Assembly (NCBI GenBank): GCA_018716385.1
Contig: DVJZ01000044.1
Span: 1-64,000, forward strand
Direction of reading: 5' to 3'
Origin: Candidatus Enterenecus merdae
GTDB taxonomy: Bacteria; Bacillota; Clostridia; Oscillospirales; Oscillospiraceae
Length of the DNA stretch: 64,000 bases
The notes under the pieces are model-generated. The model was not told the DNA's origin and did no database searches. It saw nothing but the letters and a program-made list of their open reading frames with translations. Both the position numbers and the translations under genes were made by a program. Positions 3,003 to 64,000 of the stretch are shown here, piece by piece (position 1 is the first letter of the stretch; the number at the start of each line of letters is the position of its first letter).

Positions 3003-6000
3003 TTATCCCTCCTTCCTGACAAAGTCCTGTACACTGAGCAGGGCGGACTGGGCCATGCCGCTTGCCATGCTCCAGTCTGCTGTGTAGTCGTTGCGCACCA
3101 TCACTTCTCCCGTGATCACAACTCCAGGGGCAACCATCATCTGATCAGGCACCACCGCAGTCCACACGTAGGTATTTGTCCCGCCTGGCGCGTTGGTGAA
3201 TCGTTCACCCTCTTTCAACTTCCACGACAGCTGGATGTTAAAACTGCCCTCATTCATCTGGGCCAAGGTCGTCTGGGGCAGCGCCTGGTTGGCCACAATG
3301 GATGCCCTGCTATAGGCCTGGCTGAGCGAGATCACACTGTCCGGCAGGGTCACATCCAGTAACTGGTTGACGTACTCCATGATGCGCACTGTCACCGTAT
3401 ACGTCTTGATGCTGCCATCCTCCGCTCGCACTGTGTAGACCACAGGCTGTGTGAAATCTTGGATAATCCCTGTGGAGGGCGTGATCTCCACACCGCTGTG
3501 GGTCACGATGGGTTCCAGCCGGGACAGGTCCGTGCCAATAGGCATCAGCACTTCTACTGTCCCCGCCACGTGGTCGATAATAGACTGTCCGGTCTGCCCA
3601 TCAATAACAAAATAGATGATCTGCTTGCTACTGCTCTGATCTGCCTCCCGGCTCACGATGATCTCCACCGTCACGGTAGCGGTTGCAGACCCATCGCTGG
3701 CAGTGACCTCCAATGTCACCACCTGATCCACGTCAGCCGCATCCGGTGTATAGGTGAGGATGGTTCCTGTCAGGACGGCAGATCCACTCCCAGAGGTCGG
3801 GGTCAATCCATAGGTTAAGTTAGCAGTGTCCTCATCTGTGAACCAACTGGAAATGTCCGCGCTGTAGTCCTGGCCTATCCGATAACCGTCTGAAGAAGTT
3901 ACCGTAGCTGTACCTGTCTGAGTCAGCTGTGTCACCTGCGGATCGTAAGTCACGATGGCGTAGTAGGTGGTGGCCGTACTAGAAACGTTCACTCCAGTCA
4001 GAGAGCTCCCCATCGTAGCTGCCGGATCGGTGTCCCAGCCGTGGGTTGTTACCCCGTCCTCCGGAGTCTCCCAAACCGTAGGCACCTGAAGCGTGCTGCC
4101 CGGGGTCTGTAAGGTTACGATAGGCCCGGAGACATAGGCTCCCATACTGTCGGTCAGGCCAACCGGAGAAATAAATGTGATCTCCACCTGCTGGCTATCC
4201 GGCGTACCGTCCCCATTGCTGTCCACCTGCCATTGAGCGGTGAACACCACATTTTCTCTTGGCATGGTGAAGGGATCGCCCGAATTAGTAGGCAAGCCAG
4301 CCACGTTTACCTGCCAGCCATCGAAGATCCAGCCTGCAGCAGTGGGTGTGCTGCTGGCCACGTTCTGGTTGCTACCAGCCAACAGGCCCGTTTCAGGCTC
4401 GGGTAACCCAGCCGCATTGGTGGCAGCCCCTGCCTCATAGGTGATGCTGTAGGTTCCTTCCTGATGGTCCGGAGTGTCGTTGTTGTTTGCATCTGCCCCG
4501 TAGACCAGCTCATAGGCAGCATCGTTTCCTGGCACCGTACTGGGCAGGCTGGGATTCCACCCCACCAGAGCAATGCCATCGTTGTTACTCTCACGGCCCT
4601 CAGGCGAAGCTAGCGGCTGGCCAATCGTCTGCACTGTCACGATTTGGGTCTCTCCGGCTGCAGAACCACCAAACGCAAACGCCTGGAATCCGTTCGGGTT
4701 CCCCGTGATGGTGAAGGTAATCTTCACCTGCTGGTCGTCAGGCGTTCCATCGTTGTTAGCGTCCTCAGACCACAGAGCGGTGAAGATCACATCCTGCTCT
4801 GGCATGCGGTAGGTGTCACCACTGGTGGTGGGAATGGGGTTGCCATCGTAGTCCCGCTGGGGGAATACTGTCCACCCCTGAAAGATGTACCCAGATGCAC
4901 TCGGCTCAGTGATCGGCACCGTCTGGGGGCTTCCGGCCAGCTGCCCAGGCACGTCGCTGGGCATGGTGGCAGTGATCCCTGCAATTCCAGAACTGTAGGT
5001 GATAGTATAGGTCGTCTCTGTCCCATCCGGACGGCCATCGTTGTTGGTATCCGCCACATACTGTGCCTCGTAAGTCGTCGCTCCGTTAGGCACCACGGTC
5101 ATGCCCTCTTCGATGGCGGGGCTCCAACCAGTGAACACCACGTTGTCATCATCGGTGTCCCGAGGAGTCGGAATGCCGGTCAAGATCTCCCCCGCCGTCA
5201 GGTAGATCGGACCATAGGGGCTGCTCCCCTCTTCAAACCCATGGTCAGAGGTGAAGGTAATCCCAACCCTCCATTGTGCGGTGAACACAACGTTCTGGCT
5301 CGGCATGGTAAAGCTTGCTCCCGCCGTGGTTGGCACGCTGCTCACATTCACGCTCCAGCCGATAAACTGATATCCTGTCGCCGTGGGAATAGCACCATCC
5401 ACTGTCACTGTTTGACCCGCCACCAGGTCGCTTCTGCCAGCAGGCATCCCAGTCAGGCCGCTGGCGCTAGCGGCAACTCCGGCCTCATAGGTGATGGTGT
5501 ACTTGCTCTCCTCCGAGTCCGGCTTGTCGTCGTTATTCTTATCCGGGCTATAGACCAGCGTATAGCTGGCGTCACGACTGGGCACTGTACTTGGCAAGCT
5601 GGGATTCCACCCCACCAACGCGATGTTGTCCCCGGCACTCTCCACGCCCACGGGCGATGCCAGGGGCTGGCCGGCTTCCTGCACCGTTACGATGCTGATC
5701 TCACCTACATCCCAACTTTGAGTCCCATTGGTGAAGGCCGCAAACCCAGCCGGATTGCCCGTGATGGTGAAGGTGATCTCCACCTGCTCACTATCCGGGA
5801 TCCCATCCCCATTGGCATCCTGCTCCCACTGGGCGGTGAACGTCACGTTCTCCGCGGGCATCAGGAACGTAGAGCCGCCAGTGGTGGGCATGGAGTACCC
5901 GCTATAGTCTTGGCTGGGCGTCACCGTCCACCCTTCGAAGAGATACCCATTTGCAGAGGGCTCTTTGGTGTCCACAAGCTGCATCGTATTCCCTGGCACA

Positions 6001-9000
6001 TCTGTCGCATTACTCGGCATCCCAATGGCATTGGAACCTACAATCCCAGCATCATAGATGATGTTGTATAGTTCCTCTTCCCCGTCCGGCCTGCCGTCCC
6101 CATCCAGATCTGGCAGGTAGATAGCGTAGTAGGTAGTATCCCCTTCAGGAACACGGGTGGGTATCGAACCCGCCTCAGCATTCGCGTCCGTGCTCCATCC
6201 CACGAAAACCACCTTGTCCACAGGAGTGTCCAGAGGCGTATCAGGGATGTTCAACACGCCGCCCAGCTCTTGCACCGTGACGATCTCCTTAGTTGCCCCA
6301 CCTGCAGTGGTGAAGCCTCGCTGAGAGTAGAAGGTGATAGTCACCTGGCTACTGTCTGGTATCCCGTCATTATTCTTGTCATCCGCATACTGCGCAATGT
6401 AGACGGTGGGGCCCTCAGGTACAACCACCCCGATTTCAATAACAGGCTGCCAACCAGTGAAGGTCACCTTGTCTGTCTCGGTATCCCGAGGCGTGGGAAC
6501 ATTGGCCAGTGGCTGACCCGGCGTCTGATACCCGCCGTCGTAACTATAGCCGCCGATTCCCTCAAAGCCATAGGCAGACGTGAAGGTGATCTGCACATCC
6601 CATTTGGCGGTGAACGTCACATTCTGGGCCGGCATGGTGTACCTGGCCCCACCAGTTGTGGGCACGGCATCCGGATCCACGCTCCACCCAGTGAAGCGAT
6701 AGCCGGTGGCCGTCGGCTGTTGTGTGGATACCTGTTGGGTGGTTCCGGACAGCACATCGGTCTGGCTAACTGGCAGGTTACTGACATTGCTGCCCGCCAC
6801 CCCCGCATCATAGGTGATTGTGTACGTCTCCTCCTCCGAGTCCGGCTTGTTGTTATTGTTCCGATCTTCCTCGTATACCAGGGTGTAGGCGGCATCGCTG
6901 CTGGGCACCGTATCAGGCAGGACAGGCTCCCAACCCACCTCGGCGATGCCATCATTGGCACTCTCTACACCATCAGGCGCGACCAACGTTTGGCCTGCTT
7001 GCTGCAGGGTCACAATCGTCGTCTGCCCTGCGCTCCAATGCTGGCTGCCGTGGCTGAATGCGTCAAACCCTGCTGGGTTGCCCGAAATGGTGAAGGTGAT
7101 CTCCACCTGCTCACGGTCGGGCACTCCGTCCCCGTTGGTGTCCTGCGCCCACTGCGCCGTGAATGTTACGTTACACTGGGGCATCTGGAAGCTCTCCCCA
7201 CCCTCGGTGGGCATGAGGTCACCAGCATAGTCCGTGCTAGGATAGACGCTCCAGCCGTCAAAGACGTAGCCCGTTGCCGTTGGCACCACGTCAGACACCT
7301 GCTGCGTACTGTTTACCAACACATCCGTCACGGTCGTAGGCAACCCGGTCACCGAGGCGGGCACGCTGCCCTCCGCATAGATCACTGCGAACTTCCGTTC
7401 CTCCAAGTCCGGTGTCCCGTTGTTATTCTCATCCGCCGCGTACTGCGCCACATAGGTAGTGGCTTCATTAGGCACCTGGGTCTTGCCCACGTTGATAGCG
7501 GGCGACCAACCGGTAAAGACCACATTGTCATCATCCGTATCCAGCGGCATTGGGATATCAGCCAGAATCGCTCCCGGGACCTGGAAACCGCCGTCCACGA
7601 TGTTGCCCATCGCATCAGAGAAGCCGTTATCAGACTCAAAGGTGATCTGCACGCCCCATTGAGCGGTAAACACCACATTTTCATTGGGCATGGAGAAGCT
7701 TTCCCCAGGCGTGGTAGGCACACCGTTCACGTTCACACTCCAGCCGGTGAACTCGTACCCCATCGCCGTGGGCTCCTGGATGGACACGGTCACAGACTGG
7801 CCAGCCACCAAGTTGGCCTCAGAATCGGGCAGGTTAGTGGCACTCGCACCGGCAAAGCCAGCCTCATAGGTGATGGTATACTTCGTCTCCTCGCTGTCCG
7901 GCGTGTTGTCGTTGTTTACATCTGCGCTGTACGTCAAGGTGTACATCGTGTTTGTACCGGGCACATTGGCAGGCAGGGGAGGATTCCATCCCTCCGAGGC
8001 GATGTTGTCATCAGGTGTCTCCACACCCTGGGGATAGATCAGGGCTGCACCAGGTGTCTGGCGGGTGACAATGTCTGCTGTCGTACCATCCGGCCAAGTC
8101 TGATCCGCATGGGTAAATTCTGCAAAGCCCTTGGTATTGCCTTCGATCCGGAAGGTGATAGTCACCTGCTCGCTATCCGCCACACCGTCGTTGTTCTCAT
8201 CAGCTGTCCACTGAGCCGTGAAGGTCACATTCGACAACGGCATGGTAAAGTTTTCCCCTGTGCCGGTAGGCATGGAGTTGCCGGCATAGTCCTCGTCAGG
8301 CATCACGCTCCAACCGATGAATAGCCAATCCTCAGCAGTCGGCACATTGTCTGTCACGGTCTGGCTGCTGCCTGCCGCCACGGTGACAGCATTCGGCAGG
8401 TTAGCCGCGGTACCCACCGAGCCTGCCTCATAGGTGATGGAGAAGTTCTCTGATCCATCCAGGATATCGTTGTTATTCAGGTCGGGGCCATACTTCAGCG
8501 TATACCTCCCGCCACCCGTCGGCACGATAGCATCCAGCTCAGGATCCCATCCGATCCTCACGATATTGTCATCGGTACTCTCAACACCATTAGGGTACTC
8601 CAATGTCTCGCCCGGCGTCTGGAGGGTGGTGATTTCCATCACACCTGCGGGCCAAGTCTGGCTTCCATTAGTAAATCCCTGGAATCCATTTGTGTTGCCC
8701 GTGATGATAAAAGTAACTGTCGCCTGGTTGCCATCTGGCTCACCATCGTTGTTGGTATCGGCCACATAGATGGCATAATAGATTGTGTTTGCGTTAGGCA
8801 CCTCCGCCCCATCCAGATCCGTACCGGTGGTGGCACTCTGATTGGTATTCCAGCCCACGAACACTACGCCGTCACTGTCCGTATCCCGTGGGATATCTGC
8901 GATGTTCAGCGGATCGCCTGGAGTCTGCAGGGTGTCAATCTGCTTCCTACTCGCGCCCGTAGTCTCAAAGCCATGCTCAGAGTAGAAGGTGATGGTCACT

Positions 9001-12000
9001 TGATTGCCATCGGGCTCATCGTCGTTGTTAATGTCATCGGCATACTGAGCCACATAGGTTACAGGGCCCTCTAGTACCGTCTCACCGGTCAGATCGTCAG
9101 TCAATGTAGTGCTGCCCGAAGTGTCCTCCCGTACCCAGTGGGTAAACACCACCCCGTCGTTGTTGGTATCCAGCGGATCGGGGATATTATCCAGAGCCTC
9201 GTTCGGAGTCTGATAGCTGCTGATGCTGGTATTGGCATCTCCGTCAAAGCCGTGCTCGGACTTGAAGGTGACCTCCACATCCCACTGGGCGGTGAACACT
9301 ACGTCATCACCTGGCATAGTGAAGCTAATGTCAGCATGAGTCAGAGTCCCTGCAGGCAACGAAGTCCCGCCACCTCCACTGACACCACCGCCGGGAATCC
9401 ATATCGTTGGGATAGATGCTCCAGTGTAATCATCAACAGGAGTTACTGTCCAACCAGTGAAGCGGTATCCATCTGGGGCAGAAATATGGTAATCCCCAAG
9501 GAACACATCACTATTGACTGGCTGGCCGGCTACTAAGTTGCTAGCACTATCGGGGATACTGTCGGTATTTGTAGCACTATTTCCCATAATCCACTCAAAC
9601 GTAGATACGCCGTCCGCAATACCAGGATTAAAGGTGATGCTATAGTGCTCCTCATCCTCATCCGGCCTGTCGTCATTGTTCAAGTCATCCGCATAGATGG
9701 CATAGTAGGTTTCAGACGTCATGGGCACCATAGCTCCGGTCATGGGTTCTCCAGTGGTGGCGTTCTCATCAGTACTCCAGCCCACAAACACCACATCGTC
9801 ATCAGCCGTCTCCCAAGGCGTGGGGAAAACTAGCGTCTGGTTCGGAGTCTGGAGCGTTTCGATGGGGCCATCATCCTGGCTGCCCTCTACATTAAACCCA
9901 TACTCAGAGTAGAAGGTAATGGTCACCTGGTTGCCATCGGGCTCACCGTCGTTGTTCACATCGTCGGCATACTGAGCCACATAGGTTACGGGCTCCTCCA
10001 GCACCGTCTCACCGGTCAGATCGTCGGTCAATGTGGTGCTACCTGAAGTATCCTCCCGCACCCAGTGGGTGAACACCACCCCGTCGTTGTTGGTATCCAG
10101 CGGATCGGGGATATTATCCAGAGCCTCGTTCGGGCTCTGATAGCTGCTGATGCTGGTATTGGCATCTCCGTCAAAGCCGTGCTCGGACTTGAATGTGACC
10201 TCAACATCCCACTGGGCGATGAACACTACGTCATCACCTGGCATGACAAAGTAGACATCATAAATACTCATTGCGCCCGACGGGATTAGATTGCTGCCAC
10301 TCGTATCAATAGTCGCGGTGGGCCACCAATCGGTGGGGATAGGCTCGTCGTCATAACCGTTGACCGGGGTCACCGTCCACCCGGTAAATTGAAACCCGTC
10401 TGGAACGATCATATACGTATCCACATTAAATGTCCCGAAATCTACGGGTTGACCAGCCACCAGGTCGCTAAAGATATCAGGGGTGACGACTGTATTACTA
10501 TTAATGCCACTACCATGACCCATCATGTGCCAGTCAAATCCGCTCACGCCATCCACAATTCCAGGATCAAAGGTGATGCTGTAGTGATCACTCTCCTGGT
10601 CATCAGGCGTGTTGTCATTATTCAGGTCCGCACCATATTCCAGCGTATAGCTCCCGCCGCCCGCCGGCACAGTGGCATCCAACGGAGGATTCCAACCGAT
10701 CTCGGCGATATCATCCCCACTGCTCTGCACACCATTGGGATGGGCCAACGTCTCACCCGGGGTCTGCAGTGTATCGATGGTTTTCACGCCCTCAGCCCAA
10801 CTCTGGCCGCCGTGGGTAAAGGCCTGGAATCCGTTTGGATTGCCCGTGATGGTGAAGGTAACCGTCACCTGGCGTTCATCCTCTGTGCCATCGTTGTTGG
10901 TGTCGTCCTTGTAGATGGCATAATAGGTGGTGTCCGTGCTTGGCACACTCTCCCCGGACAGACTGGTGCCGGTGGTGGCGTTCTGATCGGTATTCCAGCC
11001 CACAAACACCACGCCGTCGCTGTCGGTGTCCCGCGGCGTGTCGGCGATATTCAACGGAGCCCCCGGAGTCTGGAAGGTATCAACGCTGTCCACATGCGAT
11101 CCGGCAAGATCAAAGCCATGCTCAGAATAGAAGGTGATGGTCACCTGCTCGTCATCCGGCACCCCATCGTTGTTAAGGTCGTCGGCGTACCGGGCAATAT
11201 AGGTGGTAGGAGCATTTGGCACGGTGGTACTGGCTTCAATGGCAGGCTGCCAGCCGGTGAACACCACACCATCGCTGTTAGTGTCCAGCGGGGTTGGCAC
11301 GCCGGTCAGCGGCTCACCCGGGGTCTGATAGCTGCTGATGCTGGTGCTTGCCTCATCTCCATTCAGCCCGTAGGCCGAGGTGAAGGTAATCTCCACGTCC
11401 CATTGCGCGGTAAACACCACATCGGAGGCGGGCATATAGAAAGCGATTTCCGAACCATCTTCCCACGTCGGGGGGAAGGGTGATGGGACATGCTCCCCTG
11501 TCCCCGGTGCTCCCACATGAGCAAGCCAGAATTCGGTGGGAATGGGATCCCCATAATAGTCATCCGTCGGTGTTACCGTCCAGCCGGTCAGGATATAGCC
11601 ATCTGGACAATGCATATCCCACGAAGGAAAGCTATCATCAATCGGTTGACCCCCCACTAGGGCAGTATACTCAAATGGAAACCAGTACCCCCCAGATGCC
11701 TCATCCGAAAAGTCTGCAATCCCCGGATCAAATGTAATGCTATAGTGATTCTCCTGATCGTCCGGCGTCCCGTCATTGTTCAGGTCTGACGCATAAGTCA
11801 AAGTGTAGGTCGTCTCGGCGCTTGGTACCGTGGTGGTACCCACGGTGATATTAGGCTCCCAACCTACCATGGCAATGTTATCCCCTGTGGTCTCACGACC
11901 AACGGGCACCGTCAGGATCTCTCCAGGCATCTGGAAACTGATAATCTGGGTAGCTCCCGCCGCAACCCGATCCGTCCCATAAGCCCATGCCTCAAAGCCA

Positions 12001-15000
12001 GCTCCATTGCCCACCACCTCAAAGGTGATGCGCACCTGCTGGTCATCGGGGAAGCCGTCGTTATTGATGTCAGTCACATAGATCGCGTAGTAGATCGTGC
12101 TCTCATTTGGTACTTTTTCCCCAGACAGATCTTCTCCGGTAGTGGAGTGCTCGTCAGTACTCCAACCCACAAACACTACATTGTCATTATCAGCGTCAAT
12201 TGGAGTCGGAATGAGACCGGCCATGGGTGCGCCCGGCTCCTGGTTTGTACGCACGATATCAAGATTGTCGGGCGCCTCCACAAAGCCATGAACCGAGTGG
12301 AAGGTAATGTCCACATTCCAGCTTGCGGTGAACGTCACGTTACTCGCAGGCATAATGAAAGTGCTCTCGCCCGGATTGCTGGGCATAGGCTGCCCTGCAC
12401 CATCAACGGACGGGCTAGCCGTCCAGCCCCGGAACTCATAGGTGCTGGTGGTTGGAACATTGCCGGGAAAGGTCACCGTCTGCCCTGCCACCAACCCGGT
12501 TAAGTTGTCTGGCATATTACCAGCATCTTCACCTGCCAAGCCCGGATCAAAGGTAACGGTGTAGTGTTCTTCCTGGCTATCCGGTGTGTCGTTGTTATTC
12601 AGATCGGATTCGTAACCTGCCGTATAGGTGGTAGAAGTCGCGGGTACGGTTGTCGTCCCTACTACCACATCAGGGCTCCAGCCAGTAAACACCACGTTGT
12701 CATCTGCCGTATCCCACGGCGTGGGAAGAACCAGCGTCTGTCCCGGAGTTTGGAGCGTGATAATGGGGCCGTCAATCTGATCTCCGTTCTCATCCTCAAA
12801 CCCATGAACAGACTCAAAGGTGATGGTTACCTGATCCCCATCAGGTACACCGTCGTTATTGCTATCAGTGGAGTACTGGGCAACATATGTGGTGGGGCCG
12901 TCAGGTACTGTCTCACCAGTGAGATTATCCGTCAGCTCCGTGGTAGTGGTGCTGCCGCTCATGGTAGTCTTCCTCACCCAGTGGGTGAACACCAGTCCAT
13001 CACTATTGGTGTCCGCCGGCGTTGGCACGCTGGTCAGCGGCTCGCCCGGGGTCTGATAGCCGCCATTGGCTGTCCCGCTGCTAAATCCGTTCTCAGATTC
13101 GAAGGTAATCTGCACATTCCACTTGGCGGTGAAGTCCACATCGGAAGCAGGCATTGAGAACTCCACCTCAGTCACCAGCGGATCGCTTGAGGTCAAGGTA
13201 GTCTCACCCATGGCAGTCCGATCCGTATGTGGATACCAGCGTGTTGGAATGGCAACGCCGCCATAATCGTTAGTCGGAGTCACTGCCCAACCATCAAACT
13301 GGTAGCCGTTGGGAACTTGGATGCGGATGATATTCCCAGGTTGCTCTACCATTGTCCCAAAGTCCATCTCATCCATGCTAATGGGCTGACCGGCCACCAG
13401 ATCTGTATAGGTGTAGGAGCCGGGACCGCTACTCGCAAGCTCATTGAACGGGGCCTGGCTTGTGATTGCAGACTCAGTGGTACCTGCATGGAAGTCGATC
13501 GTATACTTCGTCTCATCCCTATCTGGAGTGCCATCGTTATTTAAATCCGCCACATAGACCGCATAATAGGTGGTATTTCCCCCTGGAACCGTAGTGGCGG
13601 TCAGATCCTCGCCCTCGGATGAGCCAGAGGTGGTTCTCCAGCCTACAAACACCACGTTGTCGTCACTAGTGTCCCAAGGTGTGGGTAAATCGCTAAAGGC
13701 CATGCCGGGCTGATAGATCCTCTGTTGAGGATCCTTCGTCTGAACACCTTCTACATCAAATCCATAGGAGTCAGAGCGGAAGGTAATCGTGACCCATTCC
13801 GGGTCATAGTACAAATGGAACTGATTACTGCTGGCTCCACTTGCACCCAGATGAAGCATAGCGGTACTTCTCACCGCATTCAACACATATCCCTCTGGAA
13901 TAGAGGTACTGATCGCATTTCGCACATCGGCAATGGAGAGCACGGTATCCCGATCCAGATAGCTTCCCTCCAGCAGGCCGGCAATATTAACGGTATCCGT
14001 ACTGGTGTCCCAGTGAAGGGTAATCCGGACGGAGGTAGGCTGGCCCAAACCGGTAGTAGTAGTGGTCACCGGATAGAGGTGGATGGTGGCCTGGCCGGCG
14101 GTGTTCCCATAGGTCACGCAGTGTTCCTGCTGGGCGATGATGTCTACCCTGGGGATCGTCTGGCCAGGGTAGTAGACGGTGGAGCCATTACTACCCAGCT
14201 TCCAACCGAGCAGCGTCGCTCCGCCAGTGTTGCCTGTCAGCATCACCGAGGGGTTTGTTTCCCGACCGGTTGACTCCAGGGGCAAGGTAAAGGTCTCCCC
14301 ATCGTGGGCTGTAACGTTAGTGTTGTCCACATCATTGTGATAGGCGAACTGAAATTGTATCAAGTCAGACTCCAGATAGCCCCGGTTTGTGGAGTTTGCT
14401 GCAATCTTGTTGTAGTTCTCCTGGGCTAGTGGGCCGCCTCCATTATTAGTCCAGTATTTTTTGTCTCCATACCAGTTACTGCCTGACTCAGGAGAGATAT
14501 GGTCGTTCTCTCCCATGCGGAATTCGGTCACGTAATAGCCAAATTCCACATCCAGAGCTAAGCTTGGTTGACTACCAGAAGACTGATAGGGATAGATAGC
14601 AGAGCCTTGCACCAGCGCAGATGAGGTACTGTTGTTAACCGTTCCGCTCAGCCCCTCATCAATCTCGTAGATGATAAGGTCTGGATAGTTCTTGGGAGCC
14701 AGGTTAGCCCGGTTCATCTTGATGTTGTTATAGATCTCCTTGAACGTGACCTGCGTATAGGAGTCTCTATTCGGCCAGCTGTTGGAAGCGCTAATGCCCT
14801 GTATTGCCACATAGGTCGTGATATCCACAACCGCCATGACCTGCCCGGAGCTGTCCAGGATGGAAACATCGTTTTCGCGGTATGTCCCTCCCCAATAGCT
14901 GCCGTTGTGATTGGTCCAGCTCCAGCCCGTGGGCAGATTCAGAGCGGTTCCATTGAGCACGATGGTGTTCACCATGTATGATTGTGTCATGTCTGAACCG

Positions 15001-16424
15001 CCAGAATTAAACTTGAGCACATCCCCTTTCTCGATCTCAATCGTGCGCTGGGCTCTGCTCAATGCTGTTCCGTTAAGCATGACCGAAAACCCATGGTAAC
15101 TTTGCCCAACGCCGGGATTATCCACATAGTGGCTGTATTCCAGGAGATAGGTGCTCAAATTTTTAAATTCGACGGTAACGGATTGACCGCCCCCCATACT
15201 GGCACCAGAGAATTGATAGGTGAAGGTCTTGACCTCGTACCCAGCACTGGCAGAATCAAAGAGGACTGCACCTGTCGTGGTGTTGGTGACCACCGCATTG
15301 GAACCACTTTCCATACCCACAGTGAAATCTAGGTGTCCGTTCTCGGGTACGGAGAAGATGTACGTACTATCAGGCAGAGGGGATCCATTGACGGTGTTTC
15401 CCAGTTTACCACCGGAACCGGTGATGGTAACATTCAGCCAAAAGGCTCGCTGGTAGTAGATCCAAAGGTCATACTCACTCACCGGCAGCAGGACGCTGTC
15501 GGCAGAGGACATATCTGAATCTACCTGATAATATAGACCACCGTACACCAGTCGCACTGAAGTCACTGAAAGGGAACCAGATCCGGTCTTGGGACGCAAA
15601 GCGGCAGAATGATAGCCCCAAGTAGTGCCTTCTGGGATAGCAACATCAGATCTCCTCAGAGCATCGAGGGCAGAGGTATCATTAATTGGACCAGCTACCA
15701 ATTTACCGGTTCCGGTAACCGGAACCTGCGTATCCCCGGGATAGCCGCCCAAAGACAGGTGCACATCCACCAGCCCAGAGTCAGTCTCTTCCCCATTCTG
15801 ACGGTAGAATAAGTAAATAGTGCCACCCGAGCTCTCCACGTCATCGTAAGTCAGTGTGTCGATGGGGTCAGCTCCATATCGATCCTCCCAGGCAGCAAAG
15901 TCAAAGGTGTAGGTCACGCCGTCGCTGTCCTGCACCACGTTCATCCCGAAGCCGGAGGCAAGGTTGAGTAAGCTAACGGGAGTAGACCCCACGTTGAACT
16001 GAGCGCCGTCCAGACCATTTACCGTTGGGGTAAAGGCTACAGCTGGGAGAGACGCATCCGTCCAAGCCCGGAACTCCACGTTCAAGGTCGTGAAGGTGGC
16101 CGAATCCCGGATTACAGTGACGGTGGTACCGCCAGCGGACCGAGTGATGGCCCCAGTCACGCCGCCGTTGGCAGCGGCAGCCAGGGCTGGGGCGGCCTGA
16201 ACGGTGATCCGGCTGGTCAGCTCAGCCCAGGCAGCCAACTTGGCCGGATCGGAGGATTCCGTCTTCTCCTCCAGCTGAGTCTCGCCCTCGGCCTGCGTCT
16301 CGACCTGTTCCTGCTGGCGGGAGACAGTCTCCTCCGCCGGGGCTGGAGCAGCCCAGGCCCCGGCGAGCAACAGGCCCAGGCAGAGAGCCAGGGTCACAAG
16401 GGTGGATAGGATTCTCTTCTTCAT
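3003..16424 (-). CDS. Giant secreted repeat protein, 4473 aa, InlB-B-like modules with Asp/Asn-rich calcium-type linkers
   Basis: The start ATG follows AAAGGAGA and encodes a signal peptide (MKKRILSTLVTLALCLGLLLAG). Residues ~40-1000 form a unique, Ser/Thr/Gly-rich region. The next ~3000 residues repeat three module types. One begins VTITFYSEHGF and ends TYYAIY. The second is a classic InlB B repeat (ITYEAG ... GYEFTGWSV ... NVTFTAQW). The third begins VTFTITGNPNGF and ends YTLEYG. Many modules are joined by a loop of the form D-x-N-N-D-G-x-P-D; I count about 26, resembling dockerin or thrombospondin-type-3 calcium loops. The C-terminal ~300 residues contain a cadherin-like segment and a segment ending VYTVRAEDGSIKTYTVTV. 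There is no LPXTG motif and no SLH domain. The likely role is an extracellular adhesin or stalk; this is inference. Function and ligand are unknown. It has its own promoter and terminator. Confidence 0.85.
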   Translation of the reverse strand: MKKRILSTLVTLALCLGLLLAGAWAAPAPAEETVSRQQEQVETQAEGETQLEEKTESSDPAKLAAWAELTSRITVQAAPALAAAANGGVTGAITRSAGGTTVTVIRDSATFTTLNVEFRAWTDASLPAVAFTPTVNGLDGAQFNVGSTPVSLLNLASGFGMNVVQDSDGVTYTFDFAAWEDRYGADPIDTLTYDDVESSGGTIYLFYRQNGEETDSGLVDVHLSLGGYPGDTQVPVTGTGKLVAGPINDTSALDALRRSDVAIPEGTTWGYHSAALRPKTGSGSLSVTSVRLVYGGLYYQVDSDMSSADSVLLPVSEYDLWIYYQRAFWLNVTITGSGGKLGNTVNGSPLPDSTYIFSVPENGHLDFTVGMESGSNAVVTNTTTGAVLFDSASAGYEVKTFTYQFSGASMGGGQSVTVEFKNLSTYLLEYSHYVDNPGVGQSYHGFSVMLNGTALSRAQRTIEIEKGDVLKFNSGGSDMTQSYMVNTIVLNGTALNLPTGWSWTNHNGSYWGGTYRENDVSILDSSGQVMAVVDITTYVAIQGISASNSWPNRDSYTQVTFKEIYNNIKMNRANLAPKNYPDLIIYEIDEGLSGTVNNSTSSALVQGSAIYPYQSSGSQPSLALDVEFGYYVTEFRMGENDHISPESGSNWYGDKKYWTNNGGGPLAQENYNKIAANSTNRGYLESDLIQFQFAYHNDVDNTNVTAHDGETFTLPLESTGRETNPSVMLTGNTGGATLLGWKLGSNGSTVYYPGQTIPRVDIIAQQEHCVTYGNTAGQATIHLYPVTTTTTGLGQPTSVRITLHWDTSTDTVNIAGLLEGSYLDRDTVLSIADVRNAISTSIPEGYVLNAVRSTAMLHLGASGASSNQFHLYYDPEWVTITFRSDSYGFDVEGVQTKDPQQRIYQPGMAFSDLPTPWDTSDDNVVFVGWRTTSGSSEGEDLTATTVPGGNTTYYAVYVADLNNDGTPDRDETKYTIDFHAGTTESAITSQAPFNELASSGPGSYTYTDLVAGQPISMDEMDFGTMVEQPGNIIRIQVPNGYQFDGWAVTPTNDYGGVAIPTRWYPHTDRTAMGETTLTSSDPLVTEVEFSMPASDVDFTAKWNVQITFESENGFSSGTANGGYQTPGEPLTSVPTPADTNSDGLVFTHWVRKTTMSGSTTTTELTDNLTGETVPDGPTTYVAQYSTDSNNDGVPDGDQVTITFESVHGFEDENGDQIDGPIITLQTPGQTLVLPTPWDTADDNVVFTGWSPDVVVGTTTVPATSTTYTAGYESDLNNNDTPDSQEEHYTVTFDPGLAGEDAGNMPDNLTGLVAGQTVTFPGNVPTTSTYEFRGWTASPSVDGAGQPMPSNPGESTFIMPASNVTFTASWNVDITFHSVHGFVEAPDNLDIVRTNQEPGAPMAGLIPTPIDADNDNVVFVGWSTDEHSTTGEDLSGEKVPNESTIYYAIYVTDINNDGFPDDQQVRITFEVVGNGAGFEAWAYGTDRVAAGATQIISFQMPGEILTVPVGRETTGDNIAMVGWEPNITVGTTTVPSAETTYTLTYASDLNNDGTPDDQENHYSITFDPGIADFSDEASGGYWFPFEYTALVGGQPIDDSFPSWDMHCPDGYILTGWTVTPTDDYYGDPIPTEFWLAHVGAPGTGEHVPSPFPPTWEDGSEIAFYMPASDVVFTAQWDVEITFTSAYGLNGDEASTSISSYQTPGEPLTGVPTPLDTNSDGVVFTGWQPAIEASTTVPNAPTTYIARYADDLNNDGVPDDEQVTITFYSEHGFDLAGSHVDSVDTFQTPGAPLNIADTPRDTDSDGVVFVGWNTDQNATTGTSLSGESVPSTDTTYYAIYKDDTNNDGTEDERQVTVTFTITGNPNGFQAFTHGGQSWAEGVKTIDTLQTPGETLAHPNGVQSSGDDIAEIGWNPPLDATVPAGGGSYTLEYGADLNNDNTPDDQESDHYSITFDPGIVDGVSGFDWHMMGHGSGINSNTVVTPDIFSDLVAGQPVDFGTFNVDTYMIVPDGFQFTGWTVTPVNGYDDEPIPTDWWPTATIDTSGSNLIPSGAMSIYDVYFVMPGDDVVFIAQWDVEVTFKSEHGFDGDANTSISSYQSPNEALDNIPDPLDTNNDGVVFTHWVREDTSGSTTLTDDLTGETVLEEPVTYVAQYADDVNNDGEPDGNQVTITFYSEYGFNVEGSQDDGPIETLQTPNQTLVFPTPWETADDDVVFVGWSTDENATTGEPMTGAMVPMTSETYYAIYADDLNNDDRPDEDEEHYSITFNPGIADGVSTFEWIMGNSATNTDSIPDSASNLVAGQPVNSDVFLGDYHISAPDGYRFTGWTVTPVDDYTGASIPTIWIPGGGVSGGGGTSLPAGTLTHADISFTMPGDDVVFTAQWDVEVTFKSEHGFDGDANTSISSYQTPNEALDNIPDPLDTNNDGVVFTHWVREDTSGSTTLTDDLTGETVLEGPVTYVAQYADDINNDDEPDGNQVTITFYSEHGFETTGASRKQIDTLQTPGDPLNIADIPRDTDSDGVVFVGWNTNQSATTGTDLDGAEVPNANTIYYAIYVADTNNDGEPDGNQATVTFIITGNTNGFQGFTNGSQTWPAGVMEITTLQTPGETLEYPNGVESTDDNIVRIGWDPELDAIVPTGGGRYTLKYGPDLNNNDILDGSENFSITYEAGSVGTAANLPNAVTVAAGSSQTVTDNVPTAEDWLFIGWSVMPDEDYAGNSMPTGTGENFTMPLSNVTFTAQWTADENNDGVADSEQVTITFRIEGNTKGFAEFTHADQTWPDGTTADIVTRQTPGAALIYPQGVETPDDNIASEGWNPPLPANVPGTNTMYTLTYSADVNNDNTPDSEETKYTITYEAGFAGASATNLPDSEANLVAGQSVTVSIQEPTAMGYEFTGWSVNVNGVPTTPGESFSMPNENVVFTAQWGVQITFESDNGFSDAMGNIVDGGFQVPGAILADIPMPLDTDDDNVVFTGWSPAINVGKTQVPNEATTYVAQYAADENNNGTPDLEERKFAVIYAEGSVPASVTGLPTTVTDVLVNSTQQVSDVVPTATGYVFDGWSVYPSTDYAGDLMPTEGGESFQMPQCNVTFTAQWAQDTNGDGVPDREQVEITFTISGNPAGFDAFSHGSQHWSAGQTTIVTLQQAGQTLVAPDGVESANDGIAEVGWEPVLPDTVPSSDAAYTLVYEEDRNNNNKPDSEEETYTITYDAGVAGSNVSNLPVSQTDVLSGTTQQVSTQQPTATGYRFTGWSVDPDAVPTTGGARYTMPAQNVTFTAKWDVQITFTSAYGFEGIGGYSYDGGYQTPGQPLANVPTPRDTETDKVTFTGWQPVIEIGVVVPEGPTVYIAQYADDKNNDGIPDSSQVTITFYSQRGFTTAGGATKEIVTVQELGGVLNIPDTPLDTPVDKVVFVGWSTDANAEAGSIPTRVPEGDTTYYAIYLPDLDGDGRPDGEEELYNIIYDAGIVGSNAIGMPSNATDVPGNTMQLVDTKEPSANGYLFEGWTVTPSQDYSGYSMPTTGGSTFLMPAENVTFTAQWEQDANGDGIPDSEQVEITFTITGNPAGFAAFTNGTQSWDVGEISIVTVQEAGQPLASPVGVESAGDNIALVGWNPSLPSTVPSRDASYTLVYSPDKNNDDKPDSEESKYTITYEAGVAASASGLTGMPAGRSDLVAGQTVTVDGAIPTATGYQFIGWSVNVSSVPTTAGASFTMPSQNVVFTAQWRVGITFTSDHGFEEGSSPYGPIYLTAGEILTGIPTPRDTDDDNVVFTGWSPAIEEGMTVVPNGATTYEAQYVADTNNDGRPDGTETTYTITYSSGIAGITATMPSDVPGQLAGSPQTVPITEPSASGYIFQGWTVFPQRDYDGNPIPTTSGDTYRMPEQDVIFTALWSEDANNDGTPDDQQVKITFTITGNPNGFQAFAFGGSAAGETQIVTVQTIGQPLASPEGRESNNDGIALVGWNPSLPSTVPGNDAAYELVYGADANNNDTPDHQEGTYSITYEAGAATNAAGLPEPETGLLAGSNQNVASSTPTAAGWIFDGWQVNVAGLPTNSGDPFTMPRENVVFTAQWQVDSNGDGTPDSQQVEITFISPVGLTDSMGAYVSGPIVTLQTPGSTLQVPTVWETPEDGVTTHGWDTDPAATMGSSLTGVNVSSTATTYYAIVTYDPQVTQLTQTGTATVTSSDGYRIGQDYSADISSWFTDEDTANLTYGLTPTSGSGSAVLTGTILTYTPDAADVDQVVTLEVTASDGSATATVTVEIIVSREADQSSSKQIIYFVIDGQTGQSIIDHVAGTVEVLMPIGTDLSRLEPIVTHSGVEITPSTGIIQDFTQPVVYTVRAEDGSIKTYTVTVRIMEYVNQLLDVTLPDSVISLSQAYSRASIVANQALPQTTLAQMNEGSFNIQLSWKLKEGERFTNAPGGTNTYVWTAVVPDQMMVAPGVVITGEVMVRNDYTADWSMASGMAQSALLSVQDFVRKEG
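8995..10244 (-). repeat. Internal direct duplication in the giant gene, offset 927 bp (309 codons)
   Basis: A block of roughly 320 bp at about 8995-9317 recurs at about 9922-10244 with few differences. Aligned landmarks such as CCGTCGTTGTTGGTATCCAG sit at 9154 and 10081, so the offset is 927 bp, or 309 codons, which keeps the frame. It encodes the segment running from VTITFYSE through THWVREDTSGSTTLTDDL to VEVTFKSEHGFDGD. This marks a recent expansion of the repeat array by unequal recombination. Confidence 0.85.
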
Positions 16425-43745: not shown

Positions 43746-43832
43746 GGAGAGATGTCCGAGTGGTTTAAGGAGCCGGTCTTGAAAACCGGTGACCCGCAAG
43801 GGCCGTGGGTTCGAATCCCACTCTCTCCGCCA
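43746..43832 (+). tRNA. tRNA-Ser (anticodon UGA), CCA encoded
   Basis: The acceptor stem GGAGAGA pairs with TCTCTCC, followed by the discriminator G and CCA. The anticodon loop CTTGAAAAC reads UCA codons. The T loop is GGTTCGAATCC, and a long variable arm typical of serine tRNA is present. Confidence 0.96.
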
Positions 43833-43871
43833 AAGTCAAATCGGCTGCCTGTCAGCGTTCCCATTCTGCCT

Positions 43872-43962
43872 GCGGAAGTACCCAAGAGGCCGAAGGGGCT
43901 CCCCTGCTAAGGGAGTAGGCGGTGAAAGCCGCGCGAGGGTTCAAATCCCTCCTTCCGCGCCA
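43872..43962 (+). tRNA. tRNA-Ser (anticodon GCU), CCA encoded
   Basis: The acceptor stem GCGGAAG pairs with CTTCCGC, followed by G and CCA. The anticodon loop CTGCTAA reads AGC/AGU codons. The T arm is AGGGTTCAAATCCCT, and the variable arm is long. The prophage begins just downstream, so its 3' end is the likely attachment site. Confidence 0.96.
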
Positions 43963-62211: not shown

Positions 62212-62445
62212 TCACTCCACCCCCGGCACCAGCTGCTCCTGGCCGGCACTCTGACCGGCCGCCGCCTCCAGCAGCAGATCGGATATGACGGCGATGTGGT
62301 CCATCTCATCCGAGATCACCTCGAGCAGCCGGGCCACAGCACCGGCGGGCGCCAGTGCGAGAGTGGCCAGGTACTTGCGCACGGTGGCGTTCTCATCGGC
62401 CAGGTCCTGCTTGAGCCGGTCAATGTACTCCTGGTTGTTGTCCAC
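62212..62445 (-). CDS. Small helical phage protein, about 77 aa
   Basis: The product reads DNNQEYIDRLKQDLADENATVRKYLATLALAPAGAVARLLEVISDEMDHIAVISDLLLEAA, probably two long helices. The DEMDH segment recalls one half of a ferritin-like bundle, but this is weak. GTG 62445 is chosen because GAGGTGAT lies just before it; the track start at 62454 is inside that ribosome binding site. Function unknown. Confidence 0.7.
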   Translation of the reverse strand: MDNNQEYIDRLKQDLADENATVRKYLATLALAPAGAVARLLEVISDEMDHIAVISDLLLEAAAGQSAGQEQLVPGVE

Positions 62446-62459
62446 AGCGATCACCTCGC

Positions 62460-62569: not shown

Positions 62570-62722
62570 TTATGCTCTGGGCCGTTTCTTGCCTCGTGTA
62601 TCGAGCTCAGTCTTGCGGACGAGCCGGACCACCTGGACCTCTCCGTCCTCCCCGGGGATCACCTCGGCCCGATCCCCGCGGGACAGGATGGTCTCAATCG
62701 TCTTGATCACCTCAGGCTTCAT
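62570..62722 (-). CDS. Small phage protein, 50 aa
   Basis: This gene is too short for the ORF track. ATG 62722 follows GGGGGATGAG. The product reads MKPEVIKTIETILSRGDRAEV ... GEVQVVRLVRKTELDTRGKKRPRA, a helix plus beta-strands with a basic tail. Similar small proteins are frequent in Clostridia prophages near head genes. Function unknown. Confidence 0.75.
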   Translation of the reverse strand: MKPEVIKTIETILSRGDRAEVIPGEDGEVQVVRLVRKTELDTRGKKRPRA

Positions 62723-62738
62723 GACTCATCCCCCGCCG

Positions 62739-62981
62739 TCAGGTCAAAAAATCAATTTGGTCACACACGTCAGAAAGCGAATTGCCGTCCAGATACGGCG
62801 CGGTGAGCAGATCATCTACGCTATGGAACTCTGTCCCCTGATCATCAGGATCATGGAAGGACAGAATATAGCGGTCTCTGGAAAACGGTATGATCAAGCC
62901 GTGCGCACCACGCCATGTAAACTCCACATCATTCACCAGGCTCAGGAGATAGGCCCGCAATTCAGCTACTGTTCTCTTCAT
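62739..62981 (-). CDS. Small acidic protein coupled to the minor capsid gene; candidate immunity protein
   Basis: The 80-residue product is acidic (about 14 Asp/Glu against 6 Lys/Arg): MKRTVAELRAYLLSLVNDVEF ... FHSVDDLLTAPYLDGNSLSDVCDQIDFLT. Its ATG overlaps the stop of the minor capsid gene in an ATGA, so the two are translationally coupled. I do not recognise the family with certainty. Size, charge and coupling fit an immunity protein for the C-terminal domain of the capsid protein; this is inference. Confidence 0.6.
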   Translation of the reverse strand: MKRTVAELRAYLLSLVNDVEFTWRGAHGLIIPFSRDRYILSFHDPDDQGTEFHSVDDLLTAPYLDGNSLSDVCDQIDFLT

Positions 62982-64000
62982 AGGATGTCACCATTCTCCT
63001 TTCTCTCTGCCTCGGTCAAATCACGTGTTTCTCGGTCTATGATGGTTCCATCTTCGCCGTATGAAAAAACATGCGCATGCTCCCCGTGTTGACCAAGCGT
63101 ATGCTGCTTGGGGTTCCCGTGACCCCCGCTGTGGATCTGCTTAACGAGGCGCCCCTGCCCGTCATAGAAGTTCCGGTCCACCTGCTGTCCAGGGAAGCGG
63201 GTCTCCAGCACCGCATTGGGGCGATAATTTGACGGGATGGAGCGGTGCGCCACCCACCTGTCGGTGACCACCACGGTCCCATCTGTATTATACCGAAGGC
63301 GGCTGTATTTTTCAATGGCATTTGCCTCTCGGAACGCCCGCAGCCAGGCCTGATATTTCTCATCATTGGCCCGTTTATGCTTCTGGAAGGTCTCAAAGGT
63401 CTTTGGCACTTTGTCGCCCAGAGTCACACGGTATCGCTCCCACTGGCGGTAGTTCTCAAGCCAGGTATTGCGGGCCTGTTCCTTCTTCCGGTAGGCATCG
63501 ATCTGCTTCTGTGTCCGCGGATCTCGGGTGAAGGGGTTCTTCTTTGGGTTGGAGAAGTCCTTGATCTGCTGGATCTCCCCCGGCGTCCGCCCCGCCTCCG
63601 TGTAAGGATAGAGGGCATGCATGCAACCCGGGTGGATGTTGAGCCAGGTGTTGGCCAGGGTGTCCGGCCCTCCCGGGTCCCGCTTACCGAAGGCCGCTGA
63701 CAGCGGCGGGTATTCCGGATTTTCCCCGCTGCGGGAGTACACCCGCCCCTCATAGGGGGCGCACAGCCCACATGTGGTCCCGTGGCTGCTGATTCGGTAT
63801 AGATCCTGCTCTGGGTCGGCGGTGAGCACTGCCAGCACCTCGGCCTGCCGGGCCGTAGTCCGGCTGACCATCGTGCAGTATGTGTGCAGGCTCCAGTTTC
63901 GGCCAGCTCGATCAGTGAAGGCCTTCACCCCTTCCCGGCGCAGAGCCTGGACAAAGGCCGGCACTGATTGGTTGACCCCCCGGCCCACCGCCTGCTGCAC
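62978..64000 (-). CDS. Phage minor capsid protein (Phage_min_cap2-like) with His-rich C-terminal extension; 5' end beyond window
   Basis: The visible 340 codons run off the window edge, so the N-terminus is missing. Residues ~35-165 have the minor capsid pattern YCTMVSRTTARQAEVL ... DLYRISSHGTTCGLCAPYEGRVYS ... TWLNIHPGCMHALYPY, including conserved Cys and His. A charged helical linker (~165-240) follows. The last ~100 residues form a separate domain (RSIPSNYRPNAVLETRF ... QIHSGGHGNPKQHTLGQHGEHAHVFSYGEDG), rich in His. Such extensions on phage head proteins are known in the MuF polymorphic-toxin group. Toxic activity here is not shown. Confidence 0.82.
   Translation of the reverse strand: MQQAVGRGVNQSVPAFVQALRREGVKAFTDRAGRNWSLHTYCTMVSRTTARQAEVLAVLTADPEQDLYRISSHGTTCGLCAPYEGRVYSRSGENPEYPPLSAAFGKRDPGGPDTLANTWLNIHPGCMHALYPYTEAGRTPGEIQQIKDFSNPKKNPFTRDPRTQKQIDAYRKKEQARNTWLENYRQWERYRVTLGDKVPKTFETFQKHKRANDEKYQAWLRAFREANAIEKYSRLRYNTDGTVVVTDRWVAHRSIPSNYRPNAVLETRFPGQQVDRNFYDGQGRLVKQIHSGGHGNPKQHTLGQHGEHAHVFSYGEDGTIIDRETRDLTEAERKENGDIL

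Follow-up and report, generated by a model that had tools for sequence, protein, structure and literature searches.

A probable polymorphic toxin of the MuF2 type: a divergent Ntox24-like domain and a small acidic partner gene in Candidatus Enterenecus merdae

The head protein locus

The window, by which is meant the whole stretch of DNA analysed (64,000 nucleotides of contig DVJZ01000044.1 from Candidatus Enterenecus merdae), includes near its right end a phage minor head protein gene, the carrier, whose product bears an additional C-terminal domain, and directly behind it a gene for a small acidic protein. All of these lie on the minus strand. The carrier occupies positions 62978..64000 and runs on to contig base 64447; its open reading frame (ORF) encodes 489 residues, the last 340 codons fall inside the window (62978-64000), and the whole gene is contained in locus L003 (L and G numbers denote loci and genomes). 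The C-terminal domain, a putative toxin of about 106 residues, is encoded at 62981..63298, and the 80-residue acidic protein, a putative immunity protein, at 62739..62981. The coordinates given for the pair in a preliminary description of the sequence, 62739-63290, agree with these within a few codons. It is very likely that the locus encodes a polymorphic toxin of the MuF2 type, composed of a divergent Ntox24-like toxin domain and a member of an unnamed immunity family.

Polymorphic toxins of the MuF type are known from temperate phages (Zhang 2012, PMC3482391; Jamet 2017, PMC5576092). Residues 11-176 of the in-window part of the carrier match Phage_min_cap2 (PF06152, E=1.4e-15), and the protein also matches the PHROGs minor head protein family phrog_581 (E=9.5e-37). 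The gene order is terminase large subunit, portal (PF06381, E=6e-98) and, directly after it, the carrier, which sits between the portal and major capsid genes. Two features that define the MuF family, the PF06152 N-terminal domain and the place right after the portal in the packaging module, are therefore present. The carrier had earlier been described as Phage_min_cap2-type, and the domain on it as a possible variant. The assignment of the carrier stands, and as a toxin carrier it is not new: Jamet 2017 (PMC5576092) counts PF06152, under the name "MuF2", among the MuF toxins.

The C-terminal domain and the small acidic protein

The preliminary description had pointed to a His-rich C-terminal extension of the head protein. 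This was borne out: the last ~106 residues (HSGGHGNPKQH...HGEHAHVF) form a separate domain with seven His residues beyond the PF06152 match. Searches of Pfam and NCBIfam with this domain matched no family. In an alignment of 33 rows (the window and 32 relatives) R42, H60, G72-E73-H74, H76, R92, E98 and D104 were invariant and Y45 nearly so. The AlphaFold2 model (predicted local distance difference test, pLDDT, 89.7) is mostly beta with one short helix. A Foldseek search with this model found no close solved relative and only weak matches (E>0.1), including RHS-repeat and teneurin beta structure. A second match to the domain in the same genome (C5, 31% identity, E=6.6e-4) was dropped because it lies antisense inside a phosphotransferase system gene.

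The overlap of the carrier stop codon with the start of the 80-residue gene was confirmed from the minus-strand sequence, in which GAC ATC CTA TGA and ATG AAG AGA share an exact ATGA. The protein has an isoelectric point (pI) of 4.4 and a net charge of -8, the pI across its family being 4.05-5.0, and its AlphaFold2 model has a pLDDT of 93. With fewer than 150 residues and its place immediately downstream of the carrier, the ORF is of the kind that accompanies MuF toxins. Sequence searches of Pfam, NCBIfam and PDB with the small protein returned noise, and a fold search gave no solved relative; PHROGs list it as unknown. The best PDB sequence match, S-RNase (E=4e-4), was not supported by the fold search. 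Neither Imm50 nor Imm53 was among the family matches of 33 small proteins.

Coupling of the domain to the small gene

In a tblastn search of phage records, Streptococcus and Clostridioides phages proved to have head proteins with this tail. In each of the five records opened, an ORF of 70-86 residues lies directly behind the tail and overlaps or almost overlaps it; some Streptococcus phage annotations label it "RimM protein". The viral, genome and whole-genome searches together gave 61 loci with a strong match to the domain (E<1e-10), not all of them independent. At 59 of the 61, what lies immediately downstream is a small ORF belonging to one and the same family, and the two loci without it are one degraded Lactobacillus colini copy present in two collections. 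The seed profile of the small protein held 11 of these 59 ORFs, the remainder being found by it. Because residues are invariant across 32 relatives and the partner ORF recurs at 59 of 61 strong matches, the association of the tail with the small gene is not due to chance.

Conversely, when 300 genomes were searched with the profile of the small protein, eight matched, seven of which also possess the domain. The small protein is more divergent than the domain. Comparison of domain and small-protein distances gave a rho of 0.54, or 0.45 with the carrier removed, while for domain and carrier the value was 0.44.

Exchange at one slot of the carrier

Close relatives of the carrier were collected with its first 370 residues as query. 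Among carriers 55-70% identical, the slot behind the head domain was found empty, filled by the present pair, or filled by an Ntox50 pair or a JAMM-like pair. The right flank of this slot is formed in the window by a 50-residue ORF on the minus strand (62570..62722), which lies outside the toxin-immunity pair. Relatives have homologues of this ORF behind the slot whether the slot contains the present cassette, another cassette or none.

In five relatives (L073, L082, L090, L091 and L080) the carrier stops shortly past a shared KHKxAxxEKYxxW region and has no extension, and no small gene of the present family was found behind it; other ORFs are present there in L082 (an overlapping frame of 100 residues that extends into the flank ORF) and in L080 (a gene of 221 residues). 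Five others (L030, L032, L074, L078 and L079) carry the window-type domain together with a small gene of the window-type family. In L075 and L077 the same carrier bears an Ntox50 domain (PF15542, E=3.5e-30) followed by a different gene of about 78 residues. In L083, L084 and L085 it bears a domain of about 200 residues with the signature HNHPxGxxFSxxD, JAMM-like by eye and without a match in Pfam, followed by a third kind of acidic ORF of about 57-64 residues; to judge by sequence, this is a candidate for a further toxin-immunity pair. A toxin deaminase domain (PF14424, E=4e-23) forms the C-terminus of a more distant relative of the carrier, from a Terrisporobacter phage.

The small genes follow the domains. 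Those beside the window-type domain match the family profile even when L032 is left out of it (1.8e-10 for L032, 6e-9 for L074), and the alternative small genes do not (E 0.28-1.9). The variants represent an exchange of cassettes between conserved flanks. Swapped C-terminal domains paired with swapped small genes, which the preliminary description had proposed to look for in related prophages, thus occur. The opposite pattern, a domain kept in all homologues with no covariation of the small gene, is not what these carriers present: close homologues lack the domain or carry the Ntox50 or JAMM-like one, and there the window-type small gene is absent or replaced.

Since the gene lies among head genes and phage head proteins commonly bear the pair, the domain could be taken for a structural or ejection extension of the head protein, with the small protein as its chaperone or a head accessory and no toxin involved. 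Such a role is highly improbable, as close relatives dispense with both parts, the same slot holds bona fide toxin domains in relatives (Ntox50, toxin deaminase), and the domain is also fused to non-capsid proteins of the LXG, RHS and peptidoglycan-binding kinds, as described below.

Other proteins bearing the domain

Besides MuF2 head proteins, those of the MuF1 type bear the domain with the small gene behind it. So do L064, a portal-MuF fusion recognised by eye; the PG_binding_1 protein L066; L057, in which a pretoxin-like region was seen by eye; L096, which is encoded on a Paraclostridium plasmid and apparently has a signal peptide; and L102, the "toxin" of the Paenibacillus larvae phage Fern. 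The pair has therefore been transferred between unrelated carriers. Listeria LXG proteins carry the domain with other small genes (L098 by annotation, L095 by eye), as does, with a weak match, an RHS protein of Protochlamydia (L100). The carriers outside the close relatives (LXG, RHS, PG-binding and secreted proteins) are polymorphic-toxin settings.

At one further locus, L071, two tandem copies of the domain were seen by eye, each near a small ORF weakly similar to the immunity family; the arrangement looks like an array of displaced cassettes behind a large exported filamentous protein.

The window locus thus resembles the MuF toxins in its MuF2 carrier behind the portal, in a variable C-terminal domain with a small ORF directly downstream, and in the use of C-terminal domains common to other polymorphic toxins, as seen in the exchange on one carrier and in the LXG, RHS and secreted carriers. 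On these grounds (exchange at the slot, coupling and carrier range) the MuF-type toxin and immunity layout suggested earlier is favoured. In contrast to the described MuF toxins, including Apk2 with IapK, the putative toxin domain is unnamed in Pfam and NCBIfam, and the small-gene family is likewise unnamed. MuF toxins of the Ntox50 type (PF15542) occupy this C-terminal slot of the carrier in L075 and L077; their toxin domain is unrelated and their small gene different.

Relationship to Ntox24 and probable activity

Ntox24 (bacterial toxin 24, PF15529) has been described as an all-beta domain with conserved Y, H and H, found on carriers of the type II, type V and type VII secretion systems and on MuF carriers, where it has already been tabulated (PMC3482391). 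The window domain is similar in being small and beta-rich, with conserved Y45, H60, H74 and H76 in a mostly beta model, and in having the same range of carriers. A tentative profile link also leads to Ntox24 through secreted relatives. In hhalign comparisons the phage set scored 99% against the secreted set, and the secreted set 85% against three Ntox24 proteins, while reversed or column-shuffled controls reached at most 2.7%. The phage or secreted relative closest to the PF15529 model, L066, scored 19.1 bits (E=0.0016), which is under the curated cut-off of 24 bits. For Moraxella proteins that bear the annotation "polymorphic toxin type 24", the alignment covers this region with E=0.2. An Ntox24 Pfam search of 200 genomes gave nothing above the cut-off; a search of viral contigs with the secreted-type domain and one of phages with the Moraxella Ntox24 domain gave nothing. 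The window domain differs from Ntox24 in missing the Pfam model, in possessing the motif GEHxH and, at the C-terminus, the helix RELTxxERKENxDIL, and in its partner, which is neither Imm50 nor Imm53, immunity partners of Ntox24.

According to a published prediction, Ntox24 could conceivably act as an endoRNase that needs no metal (PMC3482391). We take the window domain, with moderate confidence, for an RNase-type toxin. A toxin of another chemistry, either a metal-dependent enzyme with H60, H74 and H76 as ligands or a non-nuclease, is possible and somewhat less probable; it would suit the invariance of these residues in the 33-row alignment, the H-x-H pair, which is well fitted to metal binding, and the lack of a solved relative, and against it stands the metal-independent activity predicted for Ntox24.

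Versions of Ntox24 also occur in apparent type II toxin-antitoxin systems (PMC3482391), and the ATGA overlap suggests coupled translation. Both would fit a toxin-antitoxin module acting in the lysogen, for addiction or against other phages, with the fusion to the head protein unused for delivery. This is unlikely, because the domain does not stand by itself but ends a head protein whose gene lies between those for the portal and the major capsid, and because a MuF toxin has been detected in phage StB12 by proteomics (PMC5576092).

Several observations weigh against reading the locus as a MuF2-type toxin with a divergent Ntox24-like domain and a dedicated immunity gene. The preliminary description held that the small gene should not be found without the domain; this is so in the seven genomes mentioned above, and fails in the eighth, G441 (L111), where an orphan small gene has no domain upstream. 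The ORF just before this orphan presumably resembles DUF4926. Polymorphic-toxin systems are known to include immunity genes that stand alone. Co-divergence is loose, because the window and L032 share 63% in the domain and 26% in the small protein. The Listeria LXG relatives have other genes downstream. The domain itself found no match to PF15529 in the Pfam search, and direct hhalign comparison of the phage set with Ntox24 gave 44% only. Because Pfam membership failed, the domain is filed here as Ntox24-like and not as Ntox24.

A further case of this kind is given by four DUF4417 proteins (L059, L060, L061 and L062; PF14386, E=7e-54 in L059), in which an Ntox24-like domain shares one chain with a C-terminal part similar to the small protein (E as low as 1e-4, for a second frame of L061). 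Toxin-like and immunity-like parts in a single chain would be odd for a toxin and its antidote.

Proposed mode of action

The 80-residue protein is most likely an immunity protein that would bind the domain, by analogy with IapK, the downstream protein that neutralises the MuF toxin Apk2, which is toxic in Escherichia coli (PMC12226406). For the window pair we infer a toxic domain that cleaves RNA, a small protein that protects by binding it, and delivery in the virion, along the following lines. As a MuF2 protein, the carrier would bring its C-terminal domain to a position close to the portal within the virion. The conserved Arg, Tyr and His residues (R42, Y45, H60, H74 and H76) may form an RNA-cleaving site, the arrangement we would name first and hold with about as much confidence as doubt. 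To judge by coupling and exchange, the acidic protein would bind and block the domain, which would let the lysogen and the phage-producing cell survive; if it entered a new cell with the phage DNA, the domain would harm cells that do not possess the immunity gene.

It is tempting to extend this to the statement that an unnamed toxin-immunity pair of a divergent Ntox24-like clade enters cells on virions as a head-protein fusion, which at present we regard as rather doubtful. If it were true, an infecting virion would bring a toxin with its genome into a non-lysogen, and the small gene of a resident prophage would protect lysogens; the head protein itself would be a weapon, and lysogeny would be rewarded.

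MuF toxins, including those on MuF2 carriers (PMC5576092), and Ntox24 on MuF carriers (PMC3482391) are already published. New here are a putative toxin family, Ntox24-like and divergent, and the putative immunity family that goes with it, both unnamed in the libraries searched, and the series of swaps on one carrier. One phage lineage displays the slot empty or with Ntox50, JAMM-like or window-type contents, and for each of these fillings the small gene is of a different kind; therefore the benefit of a MuF toxin to its phage could be tested with closely related phages. The results also suggest that the small ORFs of Streptococcus phages labelled "RimM protein" or hypothetical are immunity genes.

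Neighbouring genes

The phage genes adjoin, at their left edge, two tRNA-Ser genes (tga and gct, 43746-43962, plus strand) on a bacterial contig that ends at 72907; the tRNA pair is a likely integration site, and no integrase was located. Adjoining the head protease, an 80-residue, helical-looking ORF on the minus strand (62212-62454) has an E..DExxH pattern and is conserved in the cassette-free L073. It matches phrog_29883 (E=8e-13) and, weakly and far under the cut-off, the EncB encapsulin ferritin-like cargo family NF058679 (E=4e-4). At the other end of the window, the minus strand at 3003-16424 encodes a very large surface protein of 4473 residues with an apparent signal peptide and with Listeria-Bacteroides (Flg_new) and InlB B-type repeats.
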